A program made the position numbers and the translations under genes. A DNA stretch of 64,000 nt from Bacteroidota bacterium (GTDB lineage Bacteria; Bacteroidota; Bacteroidia; Flavobacteriales; Flavobacteriaceae), in NCBI GenBank assembly GCA_027621505.1, contig JAQCBK010000003.1, positions 1-64,000 of the forward strand, written 5' to 3'. Within the stretch, counting starts at the first letter, position 1. The number at the start of each line of letters is the position of its first letter. Below the pieces are notes generated by a model that did no database searches, was not told where the DNA came from, and was given only the letters and a program-made list of their open reading frames with translations. Of this stretch, positions 24,657 through 26,949 are shown in pieces.

Positions 24657-25555
24657 ACCCGCTCTGCAATTCTTAACTTTCCACTTCTGGCCCGATGATT
24701 TTCATCGATCTCTTCTCCACTTGGGGCCAACATTTTTCCTACCTTTTTTAACGGTAAATTCCTGTTACCATAAAGATCGGAGGTTGCCATACCCTCAAAT
24801 TTTCCCTCGCGTATAAAAACTTTAACCAAACGATCCTCCAAAGAGTGATAGGAAATACAAACCACCCGCCCCCCTTTTTTTAATACTTCTACGGATTGTT
24901 CCAAAAAAGACTTGATCACCTCAAGCTCTGCATTAACCTCTATCCTAATGGCCTGGAAAACCTGGGCTATGGTTTTTTGGAAGATATGTTTTGGCAAAAT
25001 GGGACTGAGAAGATCTACAAGTTCTTGGGTGGATTCAATGGAACCATGCGTTCTATAATGAATAAGCCGTGCTGCTATTTTTTTGGCATTGCGCAACTCT
25101 CCATATGCTTTGAAAATGTTTTGTAAGTCCTCAAGGCTGTAATGGTTGACGACCTCATGAGCTGTCAAAGGGTTTTGAGTGTCCATTCTCATGTCCAAAG
25201 GCCCCTCATAACGTGTAGAAAATCCCCTTTCACCCGAATCAAACTGATGGGAGGAAACACCAAAGTCTGCTAAAATTCCATCAACTGTTCCAATACCATA
25301 AAACTTCAAAAACCGTTTGAGGTGCATAAAATTTCCATGTATCAATTGAAATCGATCATCCTTGATTTTGTTTTGCTGAGCGGCCTCATCTTGGTCAAAA
25401 GCCAAAAGCTTCCCTTTGACAGAAAGCCTCTCAAGGATGGCACGAGAATGCCCTCCTCCACCAAAAGTTACGTCGACATAGATCCCATCTGGATTGATAT
25501 TCAATCCTTCAATCGCTTCCTCAAGCATTACGGGTCTATGATATATCGTCTTCAT
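24653..25555 (-). CDS. rsmH: 16S rRNA (cytosine(1402)-N(4))-methyltransferase
   Basis: YHRPVMLEEAIEGL; YVDVTFGGGGHSRAIL; DFGVSSHQFDSGERGFS; CISYHSLEDRLVK. Confidence 0.96.
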   Translation of the reverse strand: MKTIYHRPVMLEEAIEGLNINPDGIYVDVTFGGGGHSRAILERLSVKGKLLAFDQDEAAQQNKIKDDRFQLIHGNFMHLKRFLKFYGIGTVDGILADFGVSSHQFDSGERGFSTRYEGPLDMRMDTQNPLTAHEVVNHYSLEDLQNIFKAYGELRNAKKIAARLIHYRTHGSIESTQELVDLLSPILPKHIFQKTIAQVFQAIRIEVNAELEVIKSFLEQSVEVLKKGGRVVCISYHSLEDRLVKVFIREGKFEGMATSDLYGNRNLPLKKVGKMLAPSGEEIDENHRARSGKLRIAERV

Positions 25556-26003
25556 TTTGGTCCCCCATTACTTCTTCTGCCAGCGAAGCAAAGTCTGTAG
25601 TCGCTTCATCGATAGCTTGTTCGTAGAGATCTTTATCCCATATCTCAAGAATGTTCACTACCGACGATACAACCACCTCCCTGCTGATATTGGCATGGTT
25701 GATTAAATCTTTTGGTATCAACAATCGCCCAGTGGTGTCGATGTCCAACAATTTTACTCCTGCTGTAAATCGACGAATGAAATCATTGTTTTTTTTCTTG
25801 AAACGATTCAGCTTGTTCACTTTCTCCATCAAATCCTGCCATTGATCTAAGGGATACAATTCCAAGCACTGATTAAAAACAGCCCTTTTGATCACAAAAC
25901 TTTTGTCCAGCTGTTTCGAAAGCTGTTTTTTCAATGCAGCAGGAACCATGATGCGCCCTTTGGCATCCGCCTTGCACTCATATGTACCGATGAAATGCTG
26001 CAT
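25536..26003 (-). CDS. mraZ: Transcriptional regulator MraZ
   Basis: MQHFIGTYECKADAKGRIMVPAALKKQL; two AbrB-like repeats. Confidence 0.95.
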   Translation of the reverse strand: MQHFIGTYECKADAKGRIMVPAALKKQLSKQLDKSFVIKRAVFNQCLELYPLDQWQDLMEKVNKLNRFKKKNNDFIRRFTAGVKLLDIDTTGRLLIPKDLINHANISREVVVSSVVNILEIWDKDLYEQAIDEATTDFASLAEEVMGDQNEDDIS

Positions 26004-26029: not shown

Positions 26030-26037
26030 CAAATATA
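26030..26037 (-). promoter_or_regulatory. Candidate -7 element of the dcw/mraZ promoter
   Basis: TATATTTG on the minus strand (TAnnTTTG), 26 bp upstream of the mraZ ATG. Confidence 0.5.
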
Positions 26038-26047
26038 AAGGAATTTT

Positions 26048-26103
26048 ACCACTTTTTACCACATTCTACCACATTGTTAATAAGTTTTGCCATTTTTTAC
26101 CAC
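26048..26103 (-). promoter_or_regulatory. Candidate MraZ operator: phased GTGGT repeats
   Basis: Plus-strand ACCAC at 26048, 26058, 26068 (exact 10-bp period) and again at 26099; minus strand GTGGTAGAATGTGGTAAAAAGTGGTAAAAT just upstream of the -7 element. Confidence 0.75.
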
Positions 26104-26181
26104 CAGGGGATGAAATCTGAAAAAAAATTAAATTCAAATCATCCAATTGAATTTGAGTATATTTGGAAATATTTATTTAAA

Positions 26182-26949
26182 ATGTTTGAAAAACAGATTA
26201 TTACTGAGGAGAAGTACCGATATGTAGAAATAGGAGAGGGCACCCCAGTAGTCATCTTACATGGTTTGATGGGAGGTTTAAGTAATTTCGAAGGCGTAAT
26301 GAACTACTTCCCTGATAAAGGATACAAAATATTGGTTCCTGAGTTACCCGTTTATGATTTGCCATTGGTAGATTCTACTGTAAAATCATTGGCTGATTTT
26401 CTCAGAGGATTTTTGATCTTCAAAAAGCTTAGTGAAGTAGTGCTATTGGGGAATTCATTGGGTGGGCATGTTGCCTTATTGTTCACTAAATTCCATCCTG
26501 AAAAAGTGAAGGGATTGATTATTACAGGAAGTTCAGGCTTGTATGAAAACGCCATGGGTGATGGCTACCCCAAACGGGGAGATTACCAATACATCAAAAC
26601 CAAAAGCGAAGAGGTTTTCTATGACCCCAAAGTCGCTACTAAAGAAATTGTAGACGAGGTTTTTGAGTCTGTTAACGACAGAAACAAACTGTTGAGAACT
26701 TTATCTTTTGCTAAAAGCGCCATTCGTCACAACATGGCGAATGATTTGCCACTAATGCAAACCAAAACAGCTATTATTTGGGGGGCTCAAGACAGCGTTA
26801 CCCCACCCAATGTGGCAGATGAATTCAATTCTCTGCTCCCCAATTCCGATTTGTATTGGATTGACAAATGTGGGCACGCCCCCATGATGGAGCATCCCGA
26901 TCGTTTCAATGAGATCATGCATTCTTGGTTGAAAGAATACAACATTTAA
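26182..26949 (+). CDS. Alpha/beta hydrolase
   Basis: VVILHGLMGGLSNFEG; nucleophile elbow LLGNSLGGHVAL; DKCGHAPMMEHP; ATG at 26182 preferred over upstream 25888 extension into mraZ. Confidence 0.85.
   Translation: MFEKQIITEEKYRYVEIGEGTPVVILHGLMGGLSNFEGVMNYFPDKGYKILVPELPVYDLPLVDSTVKSLADFLRGFLIFKKLSEVVLLGNSLGGHVALLFTKFHPEKVKGLIITGSSGLYENAMGDGYPKRGDYQYIKTKSEEVFYDPKVATKEIVDEVFESVNDRNKLLRTLSFAKSAIRHNMANDLPLMQTKTAIIWGAQDSVTPPNVADEFNSLLPNSDLYWIDKCGHAPMMEHPDRFNEIMHSWLKEYNI

Follow-up and report, generated by a model that had tools for sequence, protein, structure and literature searches.

In the 64-kb stretch of DNA analyzed here (the window), the mraZ gene, first of the dcw cluster, is preceded by short GTGGT repeats in 10-bp phase, which raises the question of which proteins may act at this promoter. 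The preliminary description had placed ACCAC at 26048, 26058, 26068 and 26099, a degenerate GCCAT at 26089, and a TATATTTG -7 element at 26037-26030 of the minus strand; all of these were exact, the first three ACCAC copies corresponding, on the strand of mraZ, to GTGGT with a 10-bp period. The mraZ-sense reading of the region, on the minus strand, was TGGTGGTAAAAAATGGCAAAACTTATTAACAATGTGGTAGAATGTGGTAAAAAGTGGTAAAATTCCTTTATATTTG...ATG, and its features were as follows:

25536-26003, minus strand: mraZ, 155 aa, gene no. 1 of the dcw cluster.
26030-26037, minus strand: TATATTTG, Bacteroidota-type -7 element of mraZ, assigned by sequence; its T-rich TTTG core was kept in 103 aligned upstream regions.
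26048-26052, minus strand: candidate MraZ repeat 3 (GTGGT), closest to the promoter; GTGG invariant in 103/103 aligned upstream regions.
26058-26062, minus strand: candidate MraZ repeat 2 (GTGGT), close to where -33 is expected, supported by conservation in the alignment.
26068-26072, minus strand: candidate MraZ repeat 1 (GTGGT), supported likewise.
26075-26083, minus strand: TTATTAACA, putative variant DnaA box, 2 bp from repeat 1; fixed offset at mraZ, and same motif at the candidate oriC, dnaB, hup, recA and dnaX.
26089-26093, minus strand: degenerate repeat (ATGGC), placed 21 bp ahead of repeat 1, where 30/103 loci have GTGG.
26099-26103, minus strand: outer copy of GTGGT at a distance of 31 bp from repeat 1; its conservation is weak, with 2/103 loci having GTGG at -31.
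26158-26165, plus strand: TATATTTG, candidate -7 element of a divergent alpha/beta hydrolase gene, assigned by sequence.

The window mraZ encodes an intact, full MraZ (P0001). In profile searches its product matched Pfam PF02381 (MraZ) at 1.7e-31 and TIGR00242 at 115.5 bits (cut-off 98.35), both D-x-x-G-R motifs were kept (DAKGR and DTTGR), and its PDB relatives were 1n0e and 9qlr. The dcw order continued 3' of mraZ with rsmH/mraW, a small ftsL-like ORF, a penicillin-binding protein, murE and mraY, all named on the basis of sequence and gene order. The promoter scan found no sigma70-type promoters in the region, as expected for Bacteroidota. The mraZ gene was found in 56 of 60 relatives. Elsewhere in the phylum, the eight sampled genomes of family f37 (G085, G117, G144, G158, G162, G170, G193 and G201) had no MraZ match, which suggests a loss of mraZ in that family.

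In order to follow the proposal that the 10-bp-phased GTGGT repeats are conserved in relatives, mraZ upstream regions were gathered from related genomes, yielding 110 distinct sequences. The phasing proved to be conserved: a perfect GTGG-N6-GTGG-N6-GTGG triplet, followed by a TAnnTTTG-like -7 element, was present in 103 of them, with GTGG invariant at all three positions, counts that overstate independence given that many loci are closely related and most come from metagenome-assembled or single-cell genomes. The triplet was also nearly exclusive to the mraZ/dcw promoter. A search of 60 related genomes resulted in 49 matches, 46 of them at mraZ (counted from coordinates, one being a presumed duplicated contig end), with three matches for the reversed-pattern control, and the window's own genome had the triplet at the mraZ site only. 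Within the window, GTGGT-N5-GTGGT-N5-GTGGT occurred once, with 0 occurrences expected from 100 dinucleotide shuffles.

TGGG-containing repeats were reportedly described for E. coli MraZ by Eraso et al. in 2014. The MraZ boxes of the E. coli mra promoter, of Mollicutes and of Burkholderia cenocepacia (in the latter, four 7-nt repeats with 3-nt spacers) resemble the window array in their GTG-core direct repeats with a 10-bp period, at least three of which are present here, and in their site, the promoter of mraZ, which is the sole such site in most genomes. Mycoplasma boxes consist of AAAGTG[T/G] direct repeats (PMC8475190), and the likeness to mollicute AAAGTG-type repeats drawn in the preliminary description was borne out, the array fitting the published mollicute core, (AAAGTGKN3)3 (PMC5282649). 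The window array differs from known boxes in its repeat unit (GTGGT/GTGGG), in the second conserved motif wedged into it, and in its placement, which covers the -33 region on the upstream side of the -7 element, while the arrays of E. coli and Burkholderia were reported downstream of -10 (PMC7761207). A search of openly licensed papers on MraZ with cryo-EM returned nothing relevant. Based on the conservation of the triplet, its near-confinement to mraZ, the genuine mraZ gene and the match to the published core, the GTGGT array is very likely a MraZ operator acting as a repressor array. The three GTGGT on one helix face, together with the half-conserved outer copies, would form the MraZ binding array. 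Bound at 26048-26072, MraZ would cover the -33 region beside the TATATTTG -7 element and repress its own operon; this promoter occlusion is suggested by geometry only. In other families of the phylum, the array was found with either GTGGG or GTGGT, and there it may lie directly after a TTGACA/TACATT-type promoter (L139-L141, L144, L147, L154; family f36), as opposed to the upstream position in the window's class.

The reading of the region as a MraZ autoregulatory operator stood on these grounds, but it was incomplete, since a second conserved site, probably one for DnaA, had been overlooked: TTATTAACA, which lies in the 31 bp separating the inner repeats from the outer one. Among the 103 aligned loci, TTATYAACA was located exactly at -11 from repeat 1 in 92 and with a 1-bp shift in seven more (about 99/103), and the information content of TTATYAACAA was about that of the GTGG repeats. 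The mraZ promoter could be read in 14 families of the order, and all of them but f6 and f9 had the box. Moreover, GTGG occurred exactly 21 bp upstream of the array in 30/103 loci and at any other offset in no more than 3/103, so that the box is sandwiched there between MraZ repeats two helical turns apart. On account of the A at position 6, TTATTAACA does not fit the canonical DnaA box of E. coli and Firmicutes, TTWTNCACA, and was not classed as such.

The same motif was found at other genes as well. The window's own genome holds 29 TTATYAACAA sites; among those upstream of genes, two precede dnaB, one exact 10-mer precedes hup (with a second 9-mer 20 bp further), and others precede recA, dnaX and mraZ, while the remaining ones lie inside genes or upstream of genes such as carA and fabH. 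The box-like site at fabH was dropped, not being conserved in Candidatus Arcticimaribacter forsetii (G254), where fabH has no box. All 28 readable dnaB upstream regions of relatives carried a TTWTNAACA box, mostly as gene-directed tandems 20 bp apart; in L359-L388 the TTATYAACA tandem is placed some 75-110 bp ahead of dnaB, and an inverted TTGTTNA often comes next, along with a TACATTAG/TACTTTCG -7-like element just before the ATG. Upstream regions of hup (HU gene) showed the same 20-bp tandem (L182, L183, L227 and others), beside a formyltransferase-like gene. G254 likewise had the tandem at hup, as well as an inverted box at -74 of recA and at -72 of dnaX. Two genera shared a single inverted TTATYAACA some 72-85 bp ahead of recA (L238; L313 in G254) and dnaX (L243; L269 in G254); the recA upstream region of G035 had no box. 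A genome-wide excess of TTATYAACAA was absent in most relatives, indicating that the signal resides in the position of the motif rather than in its number.

The motif was also enriched at the probable origin of replication. In two complete genomes, GC skew switched from minus to plus at rpiB (from -0.112 at 800 kb to +0.095 at 917 kb in G035, with rpiB at 911 kb; from -0.063 at 1430 kb to +0.055 at 1464 kb in G038, with rpiB at 1458 kb), which points to the rnr-rpiB region as the origin; the switch in G254 was broader and in rough agreement only. The rnr-rpiB intergenic regions of 28 relatives contained 58 TTWTNAACA boxes vs. 12.4 ± 3.5 in shuffled sequences (0 of 200 shuffles reached 58) and five for the reversed control. 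Across 420 kb of G254, TTWTNMACA was most densely clustered around rnr-rpiB, with nine boxes, each of them TTWTNAACA, within 0.8 kb; the intergenic region of rnr-rpiB is very A/T-rich in this genome. TTWTNAACA thus clusters at the replication origin of the clade, weakly so in the window's own genome, where the region had one exact box only. Candidate Flavobacteriales oriC sequences were L316:1-290, G254:C1:179400-180290 and the rnr-rpiB intergenic region in L329-L358, all A/T-rich and unlinked to dnaA. A triple-box pattern search for oriC gave a sole match in G035, inside the coding sequence of a histidine-phosphatase-like gene, and was rejected.

The DnaA recognition helix offers a second line of evidence. 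In E. coli, DnaA boxes follow TTWTNCACA and Thr435 is among the base-recognition residues (PMC7561715). The recognition helix of the order was DHATVLHA, with Ala at the Thr435 equivalent, in 30 of 32 entries (29 of 31 distinct genomes). By contrast, Thr435 was kept in f18, a sister family of the same class (DHTTVIHS), and its seven mraZ upstream regions held 14 TTWTNCACA boxes vs. 0.59 in shuffled sequences and nine perfect TTATCCACA vs. 0.03. Families f20 and f21 have DHATVLHA, and the mraZ upstream region of f20 carries TTATCAACA, on which nothing relevant was found in openly licensed papers. In f17 (DHSTVIYA), an inverted TTTTCMACA lies beside the array, its CCACA form being ambiguous as it overlaps GTGG. 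A base-contact residue of the DnaA recognition helix and the box changed together, with the exception of f5, which has Ser (DHSTVMYA) and yet uses TTATYAACA, so that residues and bases do not correspond one to one. Ala would pair with A6, Thr with C6 and Ser with either, a pattern seen in a handful of lineages rather than a formal test.

Compared with the E. coli DnaA box, the lineage box is alike in its 9-mer length, W at position 3, N at position 5 and ACA end, and differs in having A instead of C at position 6, matched by Ala at the Thr435 equivalent. It also resembles promoter DnaA boxes in its oriC enrichment, its sites upstream of replication genes and the canonical TTATCCACA in the homologous promoter of the sister family; unlike known ones, at mraZ it is paired with a MraZ operator, and no description of mraZ joined with a DnaA box in this sense was found in openly licensed papers. 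Taken as a change of C6 to A in TTWTNCACA, TTATYAACA is likely the DnaA box of this lineage. The dcw promoter would then probably be a composite operator, in which a MraZ repressor array and a variant DnaA box couple division and cell-wall genes to replication initiation. DnaA control of ftsZ in Caulobacter and of nrdAB in E. coli is known. We favor only slightly the broader proposal that the Flavobacteriales box shifted from TTWTNCACA to TTWTNAACA together with Thr435-to-Ala, that DnaA directly controls a regulon (dcw via mraZ, dnaB, hup, recA, dnaX), and that the composite DnaA/MraZ operator at mraZ links replication initiation to division and cell-wall expression.

From the sequence, positions, conservation, specificity, oriC enrichment and DnaA residue match, we infer the binding of MraZ and DnaA and its regulatory outcome. 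DnaA would occupy 26075-26083, some 47 bp ahead of the -7 element, competing or cooperating with MraZ and linking transcription of the genes for division and peptidoglycan with the initiation of replication. With 2 bp between the two sites and more MraZ repeats on their flanks, it is doubtful that both proteins could fully occupy them at once, and DnaA could consequently displace or remodel MraZ, or the reverse. We lean toward activation or derepression, given that the boxes lie upstream of, and not over, the mraZ, dnaB and hup promoters; repression and pure titration are the alternatives for the effect of DnaA at mraZ.

With the MraZ array as described above, TTATYAACA might be the site of another, unnamed regulator of the cell cycle or replication in Bacteroidota, acting also at dnaB, hup, recA and dnaX. 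DnaA often regulates its own gene, and the lack of enrichment at the dnaA promoter of relatives (6 boxes vs. 6.8 in shuffled sequences) would agree with such a regulator, as would the 20-bp tandem at dnaB and hup, to our knowledge not a classical DnaA-box spacing. The enrichment at the GC-skew switch, the shared degeneracy at positions 3 and 5, and the canonical TTATCCACA at the mraZ promoter of f18, where DnaA has retained Thr435, all argue for DnaA instead, making this regulator unlikely. A DnaA-bound box could also serve as a titration or chromosome-organizing site with no effect on dcw transcription, the MraZ array alone being regulatory; other bacteria have DnaA-binding sites outside promoters, such as datA and DARS. 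We consider this improbable, since in 12 of 14 families the box keeps both its 2-bp gap from the repeats and its distance from the -7 element, which suggests that it functions in the promoter.

That TTATYAACAA is itself part of the MraZ operator, as an A/T-rich spacer or a second MraZ-ring contact between outer and inner repeats, would account for its position, at a nearly fixed offset, in the interval from GTGG at -21 to repeat 1. Nevertheless, the 9-mer occurs in the absence of GTGG triplets at dnaB, hup, recA, dnaX and rnr-rpiB, and the triplets are nearly restricted to mraZ, which renders this reading very improbable. The link between division-gene expression and replication is little studied in Bacteroidota. 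If the composite operator holds true, it would provide a mutable 40-bp element shared by the dcw repressor and the initiator of replication, a corrected motif of the DnaA box for locating Flavobacteriales origins and DnaA targets, and, in Thr435/C6 vs. Ala435/A6, a residue-base pair with which to test the evolution of DnaA specificity.

The divergent gene with its ATG at 26182, an alpha/beta hydrolase gene according to Pfam, is followed by an EngB-like GTPase gene, EngB being named from sequence. The sequence TTGTTAATAA, considered as its -33 element, was ruled out, having no fittingly spaced -7 element in the window. The hydrolase gene adjoined mraZ across a common intergenic region in 106 of 113 loci, and may be co-regulated with it.
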